From: Microbacteriaceae bacterium MWH-Ta3
Lineage (GTDB): Bacteria > Actinomycetota > Actinomycetes > Actinomycetales > Microbacteriaceae
Length of the DNA stretch: 64,000 bases
Direction of reading: 5' to 3'
Assembly: GCA_003053925.1 (NCBI GenBank)
Contig: QBKD01000001.1
Span: forward strand, 186,001 to 250,000
The notes beneath the pieces are model-generated. The model had not been told where the DNA came from, did no database searches, and saw nothing but the letters and a program-made list of their open reading frames with translations. Both the position numbers and the translations under genes were made by a program. This document shows, piece by piece, positions 13,668 to 49,159 of this stretch (positions are counted from its first letter, which is position 1; every line of letters starts with the position of its first letter).

Positions 13668-15023
13668 CTACGGCAACACCACGGAGTCAGACCACGCACT
13701 TGACGTGCCGTTGGAATACACCGCTTTTACCTGAACCCGCCCCGGATAACGAATACCGGTGATGGTGGAATACCGAGCAGTCGTTACGGTACCGGCAAAA
13801 GTCGTCACTGCCCCGTTTGAGGTGCGCGTGTACCTCACGACGTAGTCACGAATCACGAGGCTGGTGTTGGGATTCATCAGATTCCACGCAACTTTGTAGG
13901 TGTTTGCCGCTGTCGCAACCGCCGAGATTCGCGTGGGTTTGGGTGTCGAGCTACCCAGCATGATCGCACGGAGTGGGCCGCTTCCACTCGCGAATAGAAC
14001 TGTTCCGCCCTGATCGCGATCGAGTAGGTAGGAGAGGTTTCCCACCGAACGAATGGTTGACACCCTGCCCGTCGAACGGTTGAGAGTGACCAGTGAACTA
14101 TTGGAGTAATCAGCGGTCGGCAGAGTGGAATAAAGCGTGCCGTTGGGAGCCTGCACTAACCCACTAATCCAGGTGTTGTCGCCGGATGCGCCAAGCACCG
14201 GTACCTCCGTTTCGAGATCCAGGGTGTCGGCGTTGTACAAATACAGGAAACTTCCAAACCCGGAGCTCACAAGGAGAGCCAAGCGGCCGTCCGACAACAC
14301 AATCATCGAGTTCAACGCCATGGTGTAGCCCTCGACTACCGGCGCGGACACAGTGCTCACGTCAAACGCAACGAGAGTTTCGCCGTCGGGATCCGTCGGT
14401 GCCACATAGAGTGCGTTGTTTCGACTATTCAGCAATACTTTCGCGCCTCCCCAAATTGCGGGATAGTCCGTAATCTGTGTGCGCACAATGCTTCGTGTGG
14501 CGGTATCGAGATGCAAGAGGGTCGTGGCGCTGCCGTCAAACGTCGCGATGTACAGTCGACTGCCATCAGCGTTCGACGCGAGGTCGTAGATGTTTCCACG
14601 CGTGTACGAATCACCGGGCCATAGTTGGGTGAAATTGGACGGCGACACGGTTGTGGCGACAAGTGTGGACGTGTCCACCTTGAGAATAGTCCGAGCAGTG
14701 TAGATAAATAGGTAGCGACGATTGCCGCTTGGTTCGATTCCCTCAAACGAAGCACCCACTCGGGCGGTAATAGTCAACTTGACCGCACGAGTATCGGCGG
14801 CGTACAACACAACTCTCGAGGGGGAAGCCACCGCGATTATGGTGTCGCTTCGTAACGCCACTGACCCGAGTTCCGACGTTGAGCCCAGAGACCCCACGAC
14901 ACACAGTGATGTACACGGAGTCGCCTGCACGGGAGATGTGGTGATAAAAACACTGGACAGAGCGAGGGTGAGCGCCAGAAAATCGCGAATTGCGCGGCGC
15001 GTGCCGCGAACAACGTTGTTCAT
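13668..15023 (-). CDS. Secreted protein with propeller-like repeats and a C-terminal Fn3-like domain
   Basis: The 451-residue protein has a signal peptide (hydrophobic LALTLALSSVFITTS, cleavage probably after VQA) and no membrane anchor or sorting signal, so it is likely released. Residues about 40-340 contain recurring short blocks such as YIATFDGSATTLLHLDTATR and TLYSTLPTADY, which resemble blades of a WD40/YVTN-like beta-propeller. The last 90 residues (PKPTRISAVATAANTYKVAW onward) look like a fibronectin type III domain. CTSLCVVG after the signal peptide could form a disulfide. I cannot assign a function. It lies between dxr and mnmA with its own leaderless-type promoter. Confidence 0.8.
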   Translation of the reverse strand: MNNVVRGTRRAIRDFLALTLALSSVFITTSPVQATPCTSLCVVGSLGSTSELGSVALRSDTIIAVASPSRVVLYAADTRAVKLTITARVGASFEGIEPSGNRRYLFIYTARTILKVDTSTLVATTVSPSNFTQLWPGDSYTRGNIYDLASNADGSRLYIATFDGSATTLLHLDTATRSIVRTQITDYPAIWGGAKVLLNSRNNALYVAPTDPDGETLVAFDVSTVSAPVVEGYTMALNSMIVLSDGRLALLVSSGFGSFLYLYNADTLDLETEVPVLGASGDNTWISGLVQAPNGTLYSTLPTADYSNSSLVTLNRSTGRVSTIRSVGNLSYLLDRDQGGTVLFASGSGPLRAIMLGSSTPKPTRISAVATAANTYKVAWNLMNPNTSLVIRDYVVRYTRTSNGAVTTFAGTVTTARYSTITGIRYPGRVQVKAVYSNGTSSAWSDSVVLP

Positions 15024-39297: not shown

Positions 39298-41361
39298 TTA
39301 TTTCGTTGTGGACACGCTGGCAGCGGGGCGGCGCGGCCACCACATGCGCTCGCCCACCATGAAGGTCAGCGAGGGCACAACCACGGTGCGTACCAGCAAG
39401 GTGTCCAACAGAACACCGACACACACGATCACACCGATTTGCGTCAGGGTGATGAGCGGCAGAACTCCGAGCACGGCGAACACCGCGGCCAACAGTACGC
39501 CGGCACTCGTGATGACGCCACCGGTTGCACCGAGGGCACGAATCATGCCCTGGCGAATACCGGTGGGCACACCGCCCTCGACGACTTCGGATTCCTCTTT
39601 CACACGTGTCATCAGGAACATGTTGTAGTCGATTCCCAGCGCGACAAGGAACAGGAACGACAACACAAACACGTTCGCATCCAGCGCGGGGAAGCCCCAG
39701 ATCAACTGGAACAGGAACCAGCTGGCACCGATCGCTGCGAAGTAGCTGGCCACAACGGTAGCCAACAGCAACGCGGGGGCAACGAGCGCACGAAGCACGA
39801 TGACAAGCATGAGGAACACGATGGCGAGAACCGTCGGGAAGATCAGCGCTTCGTCGGCATCGATTGCGGCCTCGGTGTCGACGACAACCGCGTCGACACC
39901 ACCCACCATGGCCGTACCGTCGCCCACCGAATCCAGCTCGTCACGCACGTCCACAATTGCGGCCTTGGCGTCATCGGATTCCGATTCGTGATCGAGTGTG
40001 ACGCTCACCAGCGTGTAACCGCCGGCGCTCGACCCTGCGGCTACTGCCGTGACATCGCTGCGCGAATCGAGAGACTCGACAACCTGATCGACATCGGAAT
40101 CGGGCGAGACAACCGTGGCGCGCGAGCCCTGGAAGGCCTCGAACTTGTCGGTCAAAATCGTCTGACCCACGACCGCATCGGGCGTCGACATGAAACGCTC
40201 GGCCTGAGTCAGACCGCTCTGAATCGAGAGTGCCGGGATGGCCAGAACAAGCGCGACGACCACCGAGGCGAGACCCGTAAGGACGGGACGGCGCGCGATT
40301 CCGGCGCCGGCACGAGCCCACAGCGATTCCTTCGCGGCAACCTGGCCGAAACGGGGAACGCGCGGCCAGAAGATGCCGCGAGGCCAGACGACCAGGGCAA
40401 ACGGAAGCACGAGGATGCCGGCGGCCATGGCCACTGCGATTCCCACGAGTCCTGCAAGGCCAAGGTTGAAGTTGCTGTCCAACTGAGCGAACAACAGCGT
40501 TGCCATAACGAGCAACACGGTACCGCCCGACGCCAGAATGGCGGGAGTGACGCCTCGCACGGCCTTGGCCATGGCTTCGGCCTTTGATTCTGTGCGAATG
40601 AGTTCTTCGCGGTAGCGCGAAATCAGGAGCAGTGCGTAGTTGGTGCCCGCACCGAAGACCAGCACCGACAAAATTCCGGTGACCGAGGCATCGAGCTTCT
40701 GATCAAGCAGCGTGGCGACGTATTCCGCCATACGACCCGCAAGCTGGTCGGCCACGCCGACAACAGCCAACGGGATGATCCACAGAATGGGCGAGCGATA
40801 TGTGACCAGGAGCAGGACGACGACGACCGATGCAGTCACCGCCAGCAGCGTGAAGTCGGCTCCGGCGAATACGTTCGAAATGTCGATAGCGAAACCTTCG
40901 GGACCCGACAGGTACACCTTCACATCGGTGAGATCGGCGTTCGCGAGCTCGGCGATTGCGGCATAGCGCTCTTTTTGGTCTTCGACGACATTTGTCTTTT
41001 CCAGCGGAATGATTCCCACGGCGGACTGTCCGTCATCGGAAACCTGTGCGCCGGGGAGCATGGGAATATCGGTGAATTCCGCCGTGATCTCGGACAGGTT
41101 GGCGTTGATTGTCTCGAGTTGCGTGTCGGTGAGGTCCGATGCCGAGTCGTAGACCACCCAGATTGACGTTCCCGCGCTTTCGGGGAATGCCGACACAATG
41201 CGGGCAACCTTGGCGGCTTCGGATGCGCTCGGCGCTCCCGATTCTGGTGCCGTTTCGACATCGGTCGTTGCGGACAATGCAAATAACCCGGCGGTGACGG
41301 CCAGCGAGACCAGCAGACCCGCCAATGCGGTCCACCGGCTAAAGACGCGGTTGAGGAACAT
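39298..41361 (-). CDS. MMPL/RND family transporter
   Basis: The 687-residue protein has two halves, each with a first membrane segment, a periplasmic-like loop and five further segments: N-half from FSRWTALAGLLVSLAVTAG, C-half from GIARRPVLTGLASVVVAL. FGAGTNYALLLISRYRE and FLVALGIDYNMFLMTRVKEE are the paired MMPL signatures. Such transporters move lipids or drugs across the membrane. It has an AAAGGA ribosome site and is divergent from a MarR regulator 64 nt away, its likely repressor. Confidence 0.93.
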   Translation of the reverse strand: MFLNRVFSRWTALAGLLVSLAVTAGLFALSATTDVETAPESGAPSASEAAKVARIVSAFPESAGTSIWVVYDSASDLTDTQLETINANLSEITAEFTDIPMLPGAQVSDDGQSAVGIIPLEKTNVVEDQKERYAAIAELANADLTDVKVYLSGPEGFAIDISNVFAGADFTLLAVTASVVVVLLLVTYRSPILWIIPLAVVGVADQLAGRMAEYVATLLDQKLDASVTGILSVLVFGAGTNYALLLISRYREELIRTESKAEAMAKAVRGVTPAILASGGTVLLVMATLLFAQLDSNFNLGLAGLVGIAVAMAAGILVLPFALVVWPRGIFWPRVPRFGQVAAKESLWARAGAGIARRPVLTGLASVVVALVLAIPALSIQSGLTQAERFMSTPDAVVGQTILTDKFEAFQGSRATVVSPDSDVDQVVESLDSRSDVTAVAAGSSAGGYTLVSVTLDHESESDDAKAAIVDVRDELDSVGDGTAMVGGVDAVVVDTEAAIDADEALIFPTVLAIVFLMLVIVLRALVAPALLLATVVASYFAAIGASWFLFQLIWGFPALDANVFVLSFLFLVALGIDYNMFLMTRVKEESEVVEGGVPTGIRQGMIRALGATGGVITSAGVLLAAVFAVLGVLPLITLTQIGVIVCVGVLLDTLLVRTVVVPSLTFMVGERMWWPRRPAASVSTTK

Positions 41362-44183: not shown

Positions 44184-45697
44184 GACATTCCCTTTCGTAG
44201 AAATAGGGCGCGATTAAGGTGTTCGGTGGTGGGCGACGCACTGGCATCGAGATCGGCGAGCGTCCAGGCAATGCGAATAACGCGGTCGAAGCCGCGCATC
44301 GAGAGCGCACCGCGTTCCAGGGCTCGATCGAGTGGCGCAGTGACATTCCTGGGCAGACGATGCTCGGCCGCAGAAATCACTCCACCGCGCACCCGCGCAT
44401 TGATATCGCCCCACCGTGCGATCGCTCGGGCACGTGCCGACGTCACGCGTTCACGTGCCTCGTGGGATGTTACGGAACCGGGCAGCCCCTCGCGGACCAG
44501 CGCCGCCGATACACGGCGGACCGCCACATGAATGTCGATGCGGTCCATGAGTGGCCCCGAGAGTCGGCCGAGGTACCGCCGCTTCACGATGGGAGTGCAC
44601 GTGCACGATTCGCCGTCGCCACCGCCCAGGCCACACGGGCACGGGTTAGCGGCCAAGATTACATGGCAGCGTGCGGGAAATTCGACGACCGAGCTGGCAC
44701 GATGCACCACGATTCGGCCGGACTCCAGCGGTTGCCGCAATGAATCCAGCACGCGAGCGGAAAATTCCGGTGCCTCGTCCAGGAACAACACACCGCAGTG
44801 CGCCCGCGAAATGGCGCCCGGTCGGATAATGCCCGAACCGCCGCCAACCAAGGCCACCCCGGTCGCCGAATGGTGCGGCGCCTCGAAAGGAGGCCGAGTA
44901 ACCAGCCGTGACACCGAACCGGAATTGGCCACCGACAGAATCGACGTGACGTCCAACGAATCCTCGGTCGATAGCTCGGGCAAAATTCCGGGCAACCGCG
45001 ATGCCACCATTGTTTTGCCTGCGCCGGGCGGACCGAGCAACATCATGTGGTGACCGCCCGCTGCCGCGACAATCAGGGACTCGACAACCTCGGGCTGACC
45101 CACCACGTCCGACAAGTCGCCGGGGAAATCTAGCTCGTCGTGCACGGATGCCAGCTCAAACGGCTCGACGGGAATCTCTGCGCACTCGGCTCCGTGCAGA
45201 ATCGCCACTTCGCGTAATGACGCGACGGGCCGAACGTCGAGACCCGGTACCAATTGCGCTTCAGCCCGGTTGCCATGCGGCACGACGACTCGCGAGAATC
45301 CCGCATCGCGTGCCGCGCGAAGTGCCGGCAATATGCCGGGCACGGGCCGAATTCGGCCGTCCAACGCCAATTCACCGATGTGGACCCACTCGGTCAATGC
45401 GTCGGCCGATAGGTGACCCGCCCCCACCAAGATCGCCACTGCGATTCCCACATCGAATCCGCTGCCCTGCTTGGGTATCGAGGCGGGCGACAGGTTGACG
45501 GTAATTCGCTGAGGCGGTACCGCGAATCCGGAATTAGCGAGAGCGCTGCGTACGCGATCCTTCGATTCCGCCAAGGCTGCATCCGGCAGCCCAATCAACA
45601 CCAGAGCGGGAAGCCCCGACGAAATATCCGCCTCGATATCCACAACGCGTCCCGCAACCCCCACGACAGAGACCGCCCGGGTTCGCCCGACCGTCAC
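44180..45697 (-). CDS. YifB/ComM-family Mg chelatase-like AAA+ ATPase
   Basis: The 505-residue protein has an N-terminal Lon-protease-like domain (LPALVLIGLPDAALAESKDRVR), Walker A GPPGAGKTMVASRLP, Walker B VLFLDEAPEF, and the chelatase-like cap with CPCG and RRYLGRLSGPLMDRIDIHV. ComM is a hexameric branch-migration helicase in natural transformation. The GTG start overlaps the yraN stop by four bases (GTGA), and the stop overlaps dprA, giving a tightly coupled yraN-yifB-dprA unit. Confidence 0.94.
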   Translation of the reverse strand: MTVGRTRAVSVVGVAGRVVDIEADISSGLPALVLIGLPDAALAESKDRVRSALANSGFAVPPQRITVNLSPASIPKQGSGFDVGIAVAILVGAGHLSADALTEWVHIGELALDGRIRPVPGILPALRAARDAGFSRVVVPHGNRAEAQLVPGLDVRPVASLREVAILHGAECAEIPVEPFELASVHDELDFPGDLSDVVGQPEVVESLIVAAAGGHHMMLLGPPGAGKTMVASRLPGILPELSTEDSLDVTSILSVANSGSVSRLVTRPPFEAPHHSATGVALVGGGSGIIRPGAISRAHCGVLFLDEAPEFSARVLDSLRQPLESGRIVVHRASSVVEFPARCHVILAANPCPCGLGGGDGESCTCTPIVKRRYLGRLSGPLMDRIDIHVAVRRVSAALVREGLPGSVTSHEARERVTSARARAIARWGDINARVRGGVISAAEHRLPRNVTAPLDRALERGALSMRGFDRVIRIAWTLADLDASASPTTEHLNRALFLRKGMS

Positions 45698-46056
45698 GAT
45701 GCAACCGCAATTCGGTGCTCGATGCTGGATACCGTCGTGCCGTCACCAACGATTCCCACGGCATCGATTCGGAGCCGCGCAACACCCGGGCGGCTTGTCG
45801 ACTTGCACCATTCGCCTGCCAGGATGCGCAATCGTGCACACTTTCGCGGCGTAATCGATTCCAGCGGGTGGCCGAATTGTGTGGTGCGCCGCGTCTTAAC
45901 TTCGACGATGACAATGCAGTCACCGTCCACAGCAATCAGGTCAATTTCGCCCGATCGGCATCGCCAATTCTGTTCCAGAATTGTGTACCCGCGGTTGCGC
46001 AGTGCGTTGGCGGCGACCGCCTCACCCCATCTGCCCAGTTCGTCCTTGTTTACCAT
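45694..46056 (-). CDS. yraN: YraN/UPF0102 family nuclease-fold protein
   Basis: The 120-residue protein shows the PD-(D/E)XK-like core GRWGEAVAANALRNRGY, NWRCRSGEIDLIAVDGD and IVIVEVKTRR. YraN is an endonuclease-like protein often encoded between rnhB and yifB. The ATG at 46056 (MVNKDE) is preferred; a TTG lies at 46065. GATATT 7 nt upstream of the ATG may be a leaderless -10 box. It heads the yraN-yifB-dprA unit. Confidence 0.92.
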   Translation of the reverse strand: MVNKDELGRWGEAVAANALRNRGYTILEQNWRCRSGEIDLIAVDGDCIVIVEVKTRRTTQFGHPLESITPRKCARLRILAGEWCKSTSRPGVARLRIDAVGIVGDGTTVSSIEHRIAVAS

Positions 46057-46115
46057 GTGGACCAATATCCGCGAATGTGCGGATGGATGGCCAGATAATT
46101 TGTGTCCTGTCAGTA

Positions 46116-46154
46116 AGAAACGGCGGAAACCACCTTGTGGATGGTTTCCGCCGT
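46116..46154 (-). terminator. Rho-independent terminator after the large membrane-protein gene
   Basis: A perfect 13-bp stem ACGGCGGAAACCA (46120-46132) with TGGTTTCCGCCGT (46142-46154) has a 9-nt loop. On the minus strand it is followed by TTTCTT. It separates the membrane-protein gene from yraN. Confidence 0.85.
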
Positions 46155-46175: not shown

Positions 46176-48740
46176 TTACTTCACGCCAAACCGATTCGCA
46201 GCGTCGAGCGTTCCCGTGACCGTAACCGTGAACGGAATCGTTGCTGAATACTTCACCGTCGCAACGACCGGACCCTCTACCTGTTCATATCGGTATCCCG
46301 AAGTCCAGCAATATTCGTAGTCATAGGGGTCCCACGAATCGTAGTCTTGGTACCAGGCATCCCAGTCAATGTCGCAAGACTGGATGGGAATTCGAACGTT
46401 TTGCGCTTTCGTGAATTGCTTGGAGTAGGTGACAACCTGCGTGCATTCCACGGTGCGGGTCATTGAACTCGCTGTCGTCAACTTGTCGGCCGCCTCTGTT
46501 CCACAATCAGTTGCACCCAATCTGAATGCGACGTCACGCTGTGAATAGTAATTTTTCGGCGCGGTGCCACTCACCACATCTGCATTTTTGACAACGTCTG
46601 CCGATGTAAAACATTTCGAGGCACCCTTGGTATCGATCGCCGCACAACGCTTTGCAGCGGCAAGCACGCCTGCTTCTAGCTTCGCCTCGCCCCCCTCAGG
46701 CAGCGATATTTGGTTGCCAATTACAATTTCCGCGTCCGTCGATGTAACGACTAATTCCTGGTTCGAAGCCGCAAGCAACTTGTAGGCCGGTGAGACTAAG
46801 GTGTACACACCAGGCAAAAGGGCATATTCTCCCGACTCAATTGCCACCCCATTGATTTCTACCGTGGTCTGTTCTGCGCCAATGAGAAACTCGCTCAACT
46901 GGAAATTAACTCGAGCGGGAGCCATCTCTGCGTTGAACACCGCGTGATCAATTACATCCCACAGTCGAGTCATCGACGACGAAGTAGACACCGACCACTC
47001 GAGGGAATTCCCGCCGGCCAATGGCCACTCGATATTGACAATCGCGTCAGTGTTGCCAACTTCCCACTGATCTCCCGACTCATTCACCACCGAAATCGAT
47101 GGGGATTCTTTGAGTGCGGATAACGCAACAGCCATAACTTCGGCATCTATCCATTCGTCTGCGCCGACTACTGCAGTGTCATATCGACTCACCAAACTTT
47201 CAACATCGCCAGCGTTAACCAGCTCTGAAAGCTCGGCACCAATCAAGCTCGGCGAATCCGTCGCGCCCCAGATGCGCTCTGCAGTTGCCACCGAAAGCGG
47301 TACGGCTAAGCACAGGATCAGGGCGCCAATAAAGGCGCGCCCGCTCCATGCCGCAAATTGATTCCTGCTGACCAGCAGGGTTGCCCCGGTCGCCACATTT
47401 GTCGTCCGAGGAAATGCGGAGCGAAGTCCGTGTGTGGCGTATTGCGTTCCGAAGTAAATCGCGACTGACACGAGGATCGACAACGCGAACAAAGAACCGA
47501 GTGTCACACCAAATTCAACGAAGCTCGAAGGTAACGTGACCGCGGGTGACGATTCACTGAGTACTTCGCTGACGGCTGGAGTCCACTTAAGGCTCATAGT
47601 CGTGAAAGAGTGAATGACGTAAATCGATACGACGACTGAGCCGATAACTAACAGCAGATCTCGCAATTTACGCGGCTGATACCCCAGCTTGAGCGCGGCA
47701 GAGATACCCGCAATGGACGCAAGAAGTCCCACGAACACAAAAATTACTGGGTAAATCCACCATCCAAAAGTTCCCGCCACGGATACGGAAGGTGCTGTGG
47801 CAAACGCTGGATTCACAGACTGAACCCACTCGCTGATTACGGAAAAATCTGCCGAAGGCGAGAGCAGCAGTTTAGATTCTGCACCCATCGACAAAAACAA
47901 AGCTGAAACCAGCAGAGTGGGTACAAACAACACAAATCCCACAATGAGCATGGTTGTTTCGCGCGCACCAAGCCCTAAATCAAGCTCGGCCTGAGGTGCC
48001 GAATGAGCAAAATCGGGCTCGATGAGGTTTACGACAAGGAAGGCAACAATGGCTGCCGATGCCAAAACCGCATACAGAGCAAAAAACCGTCCGAGTGCAG
48101 CGAATGCCCATTGCCAAGCACTGATTGTTTGTTCGGGCTGCGCACGAAATGCAGCCACCCACGACGGCACTGCCACAACTGCAAAAATTATGGCAACATT
48201 CGCAAATGAAGGACCGGCGAGTGCGACTTGCGCGATATCAGCGACATCCACTAGGCCATAAGCGCTGGCATATACAAAGGCGATGGGGATTGCGAAACCC
48301 GCACCAAGGCCGAATGCGTGAAAACGTGCTGCGGCAGTGCCCGCATTCTCGCGACCGAATTTTCGACCTATGAAATAGGCAATGAGCACGAGACCCAACG
48401 TCAGAAAGGTGGGGTGAATCCCCCACTCAACGACGGTATTTGACTCAAGACCAAAGGATGCGGGAGCAAAATTAACTGACGCACCGGTCGCCCCAACCGA
48501 CAAAACGATCGCGATAAGAAGCGCACTACTCAGAGAATCAGCAACACCTGAAGAACTGAATGCTAGCGCCAAAGGTGCGACGAGTAGCGCAATAAGAGCG
48601 ACAGCGACAGTTGCACCGCGGACAGCGCCTTGTATGAAGAATGGCTTCGCTGACCCAACGGGCCATACGAATTCAAGAATTCGGTTTGAGAAACTTTTTA
48701 GTTGATCCACAATTTGCGTGGCAATGGGTGACGTCGACAT
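46176..48740 (-). CDS. Large multi-pass membrane protein with Cys-rich outer domain, family not recognised
   Basis: The 854-residue product begins with a short cytosolic part, then about eleven hydrophobic segments (first GATVAVALIALLVAPLALAF; last ending AGRAFIGALILCLAVPLSVA, residues about 40-480). A large extracytoplasmic C-terminal part follows, with a Cys-containing end: KRCAAIDTKG, KCFTSADVV, ATDCGTEA, VECTQVV, QSCDIDWDAWYQDYDSWDP and YCWTSGYRYEQ, probably disulfide-linked. I know of no family for it. GC is lower than its neighbours: 31 and 30 of 60 in lines 47041 and 48001 against 38 of 60 in line 45001. ATG at 48740 follows GAGG. It breaks the usual rnhB-DUF2469-yraN order, so it may be a recent insertion. 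Confidence 0.75.
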   Translation of the reverse strand: MSTSPIATQIVDQLKSFSNRILEFVWPVGSAKPFFIQGAVRGATVAVALIALLVAPLALAFSSSGVADSLSSALLIAIVLSVGATGASVNFAPASFGLESNTVVEWGIHPTFLTLGLVLIAYFIGRKFGRENAGTAAARFHAFGLGAGFAIPIAFVYASAYGLVDVADIAQVALAGPSFANVAIIFAVVAVPSWVAAFRAQPEQTISAWQWAFAALGRFFALYAVLASAAIVAFLVVNLIEPDFAHSAPQAELDLGLGARETTMLIVGFVLFVPTLLVSALFLSMGAESKLLLSPSADFSVISEWVQSVNPAFATAPSVSVAGTFGWWIYPVIFVFVGLLASIAGISAALKLGYQPRKLRDLLLVIGSVVVSIYVIHSFTTMSLKWTPAVSEVLSESSPAVTLPSSFVEFGVTLGSLFALSILVSVAIYFGTQYATHGLRSAFPRTTNVATGATLLVSRNQFAAWSGRAFIGALILCLAVPLSVATAERIWGATDSPSLIGAELSELVNAGDVESLVSRYDTAVVGADEWIDAEVMAVALSALKESPSISVVNESGDQWEVGNTDAIVNIEWPLAGGNSLEWSVSTSSSMTRLWDVIDHAVFNAEMAPARVNFQLSEFLIGAEQTTVEINGVAIESGEYALLPGVYTLVSPAYKLLAASNQELVVTSTDAEIVIGNQISLPEGGEAKLEAGVLAAAKRCAAIDTKGASKCFTSADVVKNADVVSGTAPKNYYSQRDVAFRLGATDCGTEAADKLTTASSMTRTVECTQVVTYSKQFTKAQNVRIPIQSCDIDWDAWYQDYDSWDPYDYEYCWTSGYRYEQVEGPVVATVKYSATIPFTVTVTGTLDAANRFGVK

Positions 48741-48741
48741 G

Positions 48742-48779
48742 CGCAATAATCCTCACAGTAGGTTAAAGAGATTATTGCG
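48742..48779 (-). promoter_or_regulatory. Inverted repeat at the start of the large membrane-protein gene
   Basis: CGCAATAATC (48742-48751) is the exact reverse complement of GATTATTGCG (48770-48779), separated by 18 nt. The first arm lies directly against the start codon and the ribosome site GAGG is at the loop edge. It could be a repressor operator or an mRNA hairpin that hides the start. Confidence 0.55.
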
Positions 48780-48797: not shown

Positions 48798-48812
48798 AAG
48801 TGTTGCACACTT
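48798..48812 (-). terminator. Weak hairpin after the DUF2469 gene
   Basis: AAGTGT and ACACTT pair across 3 nt, followed on the minus strand by GCGTTTCTG. The stem is short, so termination is only possible, not firm. Confidence 0.3.
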
Positions 48813-48832
48813 TCGCCGCGAAGAACCTGCGC

Positions 48833-49159
48833 CTAGGATTCACCGAAAGCCAAATCCTGGGGCAACTTCAATTCCTTCTTGCCGGTCTCTTCCACGTTGA
48901 TGTCCTTGAACGTGAGAATCTTCACTGACTTCACGAAACGGTCGCTGCGGTACACATCCCACACCCACACATCGGTGAGCGTCAGATCGAAGTAGAAGTC
49001 GTTGCCCACCTGGCGCACAACCTGCTGAACATCGTTCGCCAGATAAAAGCGACGTTCGGTTTCGACAACATACGAGAATTGCGAGGCGACATCGCGGTAC
49101 TCGCGAAACAGCTGCAGTTCGGCGTCGCGGTCGTAGGCGTCGAGGTCGTCATCGTTCAT
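48833..49159 (-). CDS. DUF2469 family protein
   Basis: The 108-residue protein (start MNDDDLDAYDRDAELQLFREY; motif FSYVVETERRFYLAND; DFYFDLTLTDVWVWDVYR) matches the highly conserved actinobacterial DUF2469 family, which has no known function. It is always found next to rnhB in this lineage as far as I know. It lies 12 nt after rnhB and ends the lepB-rnhB unit. Confidence 0.92.
   Translation of the reverse strand: MNDDDLDAYDRDAELQLFREYRDVASQFSYVVETERRFYLANDVQQVVRQVGNDFYFDLTLTDVWVWDVYRSDRFVKSVKILTFKDINVEETGKKELKLPQDLAFGES

Follow-up and report, generated by a model that had tools for sequence, protein, structure and literature searches.

The family DUF6350 (Pfam PF19877), which we take to be the family of the mycobacterial membrane protein PerM (Rv0955), is present in 57 of 60 genomes of relatives. 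The equation of the two was also argued from the gene order sucD-DUF6350-purH, which was seen in relatives of the genome studied here; no direct confirmation of it came from NCBIfam models or from a literature search. Within this family, near-universal in the sampled order, a worked-out role is known solely for mycobacterial PerM. PerM spans the membrane eight times, with its N-terminus inside, and is built of two halves, each of four spans, whose outer loops are buried; a pocket on its outer side receives the C-terminal helix of FtsB (PMC12004960). FtsB is stabilised by PerM (PMC6872210), which supports cell division under stress and at low magnesium (PMC6872210; PMC4450064).

The genome of Microbacteriaceae bacterium MWH-Ta3 (1.56 Mb) carries a standard DUF6350 gene at the sucD locus (C1:946775-947854). 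In the window, by which the whole analysed stretch of 64,000 nucleotides is meant, a further gene encodes a membrane protein, here called P0001, whose core appears to be a remote relative of DUF6350. As the genome keeps its standard DUF6350, P0001 is regarded as an addition and not as a replacement. We consider it somewhat better than an even chance, with a probability of roughly 0.55, that this gene, specific to its lineage and probably acquired by horizontal transfer, codes for a divergent membrane protein of the PerM/DUF6350 type to which an outer domain has been added.

The gene and its surroundings

The gene and its two neighbours are the following:

48833-49159, minus strand: DUF2469 gene (Pfam E 1.6e-44), which flanks the insertion upstream
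46176-48740, minus strand: gene of the 854-amino-acid membrane protein P0001, with an ATG start at 48740 and the stop codon at 46176-46178; a homologue occurs in another genus
45694-46065, minus strand: yraN/UPF0102 gene (E 9e-28; the ATG is probably at 46056), which flanks the insertion downstream

Both the 854-residue open reading frame and its position splitting DUF2469 from yraN, two genes that are usually close, had been proposed from the letters alone and were borne out, the latter by the Pfam assignments of the flanks and by the distance of about 100 bp between these genes in congeners. The GC content of the P0001 gene is 52.9 % (57.5, 47.6 and 53.5 % at the three codon positions), that of the neighbouring genes 54-65 % and that of the window 61.4 %. 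The DNA is thus indeed AT-richer, while the earlier estimate of near 50 percent GC was slightly too low. Codon use was compared with that of 187 putative genes, taken from the window together with 240 kb drawn from 20 sites of this genome. The GC3 of the P0001 gene (53.5-53.6 %) lies far below the mean of this set (71.6 %, sd 5.3; z -3.4), and its synonymous codon use is atypical (z -3.3), with rank 2 of 187; the sole gene that is more atypical is a 200-codon open reading frame. Within this sample, the gene stands out in composition and in codon use, as the sequence-only reading had led one to expect.

Two adjacent genes at L108:9602-11940 (C1 ~829600-831940), which on inspection by eye look like hemL and hemB, also have clearly atypical codon use, with ranks 4 and 5 of 187.

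Two signals accompany the gene:

46120-46154, minus strand: intrinsic terminator with a 15-pair stem, a loop of 5 and a T-rich tail
48743-48778, no strand assigned: inverted repeat without mismatches, GCAATAATC-N18-GATTATTGC, shortly before the P0001 ATG

A strong terminator belonging to the gene itself had been claimed, and the 15-pair stem past the stop codon (46154-46120) is the only such long one within 4 kb. The inverted repeat claimed for the start site is also there; it is exact and occurs as a single copy in the 1.56-Mb genome. Judged by eye, TTGCGT is followed after 17 bases by a possible -10 sequence (AATAAT), which one arm overlaps; the ribosome-binding region is overlapped by the other arm. 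The leader as a whole shows no unusual folding (z -0.9). The gene would be a separate expression unit with a terminator of its own and a hairpin or operator at its start. A second small palindrome, AAGTGT-GCA-ACACTT (48799-48813), is present in the spacer between DUF2469 and P0001, upstream of the start-site inverted repeat.

Distribution and origin

The genus comparison covered 15 species. The assemblies of the other 14, several of which are incomplete, were searched, and no match to the P0001 gene was found anywhere in them. The site was readable, i.e. DUF2469 was located with enough flanking sequence, in 10 of these 14 congeners, and in all ten yraN follows about 100 bp after DUF2469 and the site is empty. 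Whether relatives have the gene at this place, as the sequence-only reading had asked, is answered in the negative for these ten, none of which has an orthologue of normal composition at the same site. The spacer upstream of P0001 aligned with the congener spacers no better than shuffled sequences did. Direct repeats, an integrase or an att-like sequence were not found at the insertion site.

A gain of the gene within its own lineage would be the simplest reading of the empty congener sites. Because the site is empty in 10/10 cases, no congener carries a copy and the composition is atypical, a lineage-specific gain by horizontal transfer or insertion appears well supported. Transfer as the route is something that we infer from the atypical composition and not from a known donor. 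Of the horizontal transfer suggested earlier, the lineage-specific gain thus stands, on the empty sites and the composition, but neither a mobile-element scar nor a donor was found for the gene.

Only one clear homologue, P0002, was detected, and among 400 genomes of the family there are two bearers, including the source genome. P0002 is encoded on contig WLDR01000170.1 of the metagenome-assembled genome Actinomycetota UFOp-RE-16jun15-109, which belongs to another genus of the same family. The contig stops inside the gene, so that only the membrane core can be compared with P0001; the two cores are homologous, with 23-24 % identity (E 6e-11; in one alignment 24 % over 270 residues, E 3e-11), and have the motifs GIHPT/GLHPT and PDFA-S-P in common. 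The locus of P0002 differs from that of P0001, as it is preceded by a gene similar to that of N-formylglutamate amidohydrolase and by an unassigned open reading frame, and its composition is normal for its host, unlike that of the P0001 gene. P0002 is absent from two congeners of its own genus. A profile made from the pair of proteins retrieved nothing further from order and class samples at E 1e-5, and searches in phage, plasmid and viral-contig collections were empty. No family in Pfam or NCBIfam reached the cut-off with P0001, and no significant match was obtained in PHROGs, PADLOC or PDB, in which no solved structure is similar.

A number of weaker candidates were rejected. Weak matches to LAMP2, DUF5354 and MamI do not reach the cut-off and extend over 11-78 residues, those of the pair profile to ABCB1 involve one hydrophobic stretch of ~70 residues, and sub-threshold DUF6350 matches concerned unrelated proteins. 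Weak genome matches at L015 (cation efflux, proC region), L018, L057 (in an ABC transporter region) as well as L020 (PstC) were inspected and judged to be due to chance. The pair profile also gave weak matches when run against 300 genomes of the family; they fall at model positions 300-400, nearly all in stop-containing frames, and are likewise taken as chance. A streptophobe or TcaA-type identity was considered as well and was matched by no model.

The membrane core and its probable remote link to DUF6350

47406-48740, minus strand: residues 1-445, membrane core, remotely DUF6350/PerM-like (profile alignment at residues 36-327; putatively eight spans in two halves, with two buried outer loops)

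When used alone, P0002 matched Pfam DUF6350 with an E value of 0.0018 over residues 94-373 (280 residues), and DUF6350 was the only Pfam family supported over most of its length; with 18.0 bits, the match falls short of the curated cut-off of 30.8. P0001 alone gave no DUF6350 match in Pfam. Comparison by hhalign of the pair profile with a DUF6350 profile, made from proteins gathered from relatives, yielded a probability of 81 % (E 1.2e-5 for the single comparison) over 273 collinear columns. Reversed profiles reached 0.3-0.6 % and 60 block shuffles at most 25 %; for 122 unrelated polytopic profiles, which had been given simulated partners, the maximum was 2.5 %. When other polytopic proteins were used in real homologous pairs, the highest value was 3.6 %, a figure that leaves out one entry of 9.6 %, in which the target's own open reading frame was paired by chance with PstC, and that comes from imperfect control pairs, few of them being as long and as diverged as P0001 and P0002. 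True DUF6350 members score 100 % in this comparison. Single-sequence profile comparisons with DUF6350 were weak (3 and 17 %), HMMER with a DUF6350 HMM from the gathered alignment missed both proteins at E up to 10, and residues 350-455 of P0001 contributed no DUF6350 signal of their own. Structure predictions with AlphaFold were uninformative and gave no fold (pLDDT 34.7 for the whole protein, 35.9 for the outer domain).

P0001 is not filed as a member of DUF6350, since it failed the membership threshold. Its core does seem to have a reproducible link to DUF6350/PerM, which is supported but remote, as the HMM of the gathered alignment detects neither P0001 nor P0002. The HMM-HMM search that had been proposed thus turned up no clear match to a core family, and a remote link at 81 %. 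The suggestion of an orphan family is almost correct as far as sequence search goes, which finds a single homologue, but the core is remotely linked to DUF6350/PerM. To call P0001 a highly diverged relative that carries an added outer domain would be more apt than to call it an orphan without kin.

Topology and the outer domain

47277-47345, minus strand: residues 466-488, extra last membrane span; the preceding loop is positively charged, which places the C-terminal domain outside
46179-47276, minus strand: residues 489-854, outer domain of ~365 residues with six Cys and an acidic-aromatic YD/WD stretch at 789-811

By hydropathy, there are about eleven hydrophobic segments between residues 43 and 488, in agreement with the eleven membrane segments counted earlier, but nine spans agree far better with the way in which the charges are distributed. 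With eleven spans and the N-terminus inside, positive charges are near-equal on both sides and the layout takes rank 254 of 562 topologies. If the segments 66-88 and 262-285 are not counted as spans, there are 15 K/R per 117 residues inside and 4 per 183 outside, and the resulting layout takes rank 5 of 562 and is the best nine-span one in positive-inside fit. Both of these segments fall where PerM has its non-spanning ones. The nine spans would amount to PerM's eight-span layout with one extra span and the C-terminus outside, a view that is supported but remote; the agreement with PerM was found after the profile match and is supporting evidence, not independent proof. The Cys-containing outer domain with YD/WD residues near its end could be recovered as previously described. 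All six Cys residues of the tail (699, 710, 746, 766, 789 and 811) lie in this domain, for which family searches gave no match.

P0001 resembles DUF6350 proteins in being polytopic and actinobacterial, in the similar length of its core and in the remote, collinear profile match at residues 36-327; charge analysis also favours for it, as in PerM, an eight-span layout with two buried outer loops. It is unlike DUF6350 in scoring below the Pfam cut-off and in having a ninth span followed by a six-Cys outer domain of ~365 residues, with the C-terminus outside instead of inside. P0001 is also sporadic whereas DUF6350 is near-universal, and it is located at DUF2469-yraN, outside the sucD-purH block of the standard gene.

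Possible role and alternative explanations

Residues 1-445 would form a PerM fold of eight spans, with the N-terminus inside and two halves that each have a buried outer loop, and the ninth span would export a disulfide-capable outer domain of ~365 residues that is missing from standard DUF6350 proteins. P0001 would then most likely be an envelope scaffold: the outer face of the core may hold a partner membrane protein, in the way of PerM and FtsB, and the added domain may contact or sense something outside the membrane. A scaffold role in division or in the envelope is put forward tentatively, with the odds against it, and the binding of a partner and the contact made by the outer domain are points that we only infer. 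It is doubtful that P0001 represents a mobile second branch of PerM, in which the exported disulfide-bonded domain would provide FtsB, or some other protein of division or of the envelope, with an alternative partner tuned to the environment in some actinobacteria.

The likeness to DUF6350 might also stem from similar hydrophobic pattern and composition, in which case P0001, a polytopic protein carrying an outer domain, would be an unrelated orphan of a transporter-like, sensor or surface type. No family reaches threshold for P0001, the DUF6350 HMMs miss both it and P0002, and AlphaFold gives no fold, all of which would fit such an orphan. We nevertheless hold it to be unlikely, in view of a DUF6350 profile match far above all controls and an eight-span charge layout that matches PerM. 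With respect to origin, very many independent losses (10/10 congener sites empty, two bearers in 400 family genomes) would be needed if this were an old Microbacteriaceae gene that had been retained here and had disappeared from almost all relatives, its composition having drifted by fast evolution and not by transfer. This scenario, which draws on the membership of the only homologue in the same family and on a site that shows neither flanking repeats nor traces of a mobile element, does not by itself account for the AT-rich synonymous sites, and P0002 is at a different locus; we find it improbable. The sporadic distribution and foreign composition would suit a cargo gene, e.g. for defence or superinfection exclusion, that came with a phage or another mobile element. 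Such an origin is very improbable, however, for a lone gene among housekeeping genes, with no integrase or att-like repeats adjoining and no match in the phage, plasmid and viral-contig collections, PHROGs or PADLOC.

If the gene is indeed a transferred, divergent relative of PerM with an added domain, this sporadic branch would be a case of the PerM fold being reused outside the conserved division-linked locus, and a natural domain fusion for asking to which partners PerM-type proteins bind with their outer face. P0001 is a lead and not a finding on mechanism, with one genome, one truncated homologue and predictions without a fold behind it.

Other genes of the window

Two further genes encode predicted secreted proteins for which no Pfam match was obtained. 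One of these, at 13668-15023 on the minus strand (451 amino acids), adjoins dxr-like and mnmA-like genes and has the seventh most atypical codon use of the 187 genes; the other is at 1135-2271 on the plus strand (378 amino acids). A membrane protein of the MMPL family (Pfam E 1.1e-93) is encoded at 39298-41361 on the minus strand.
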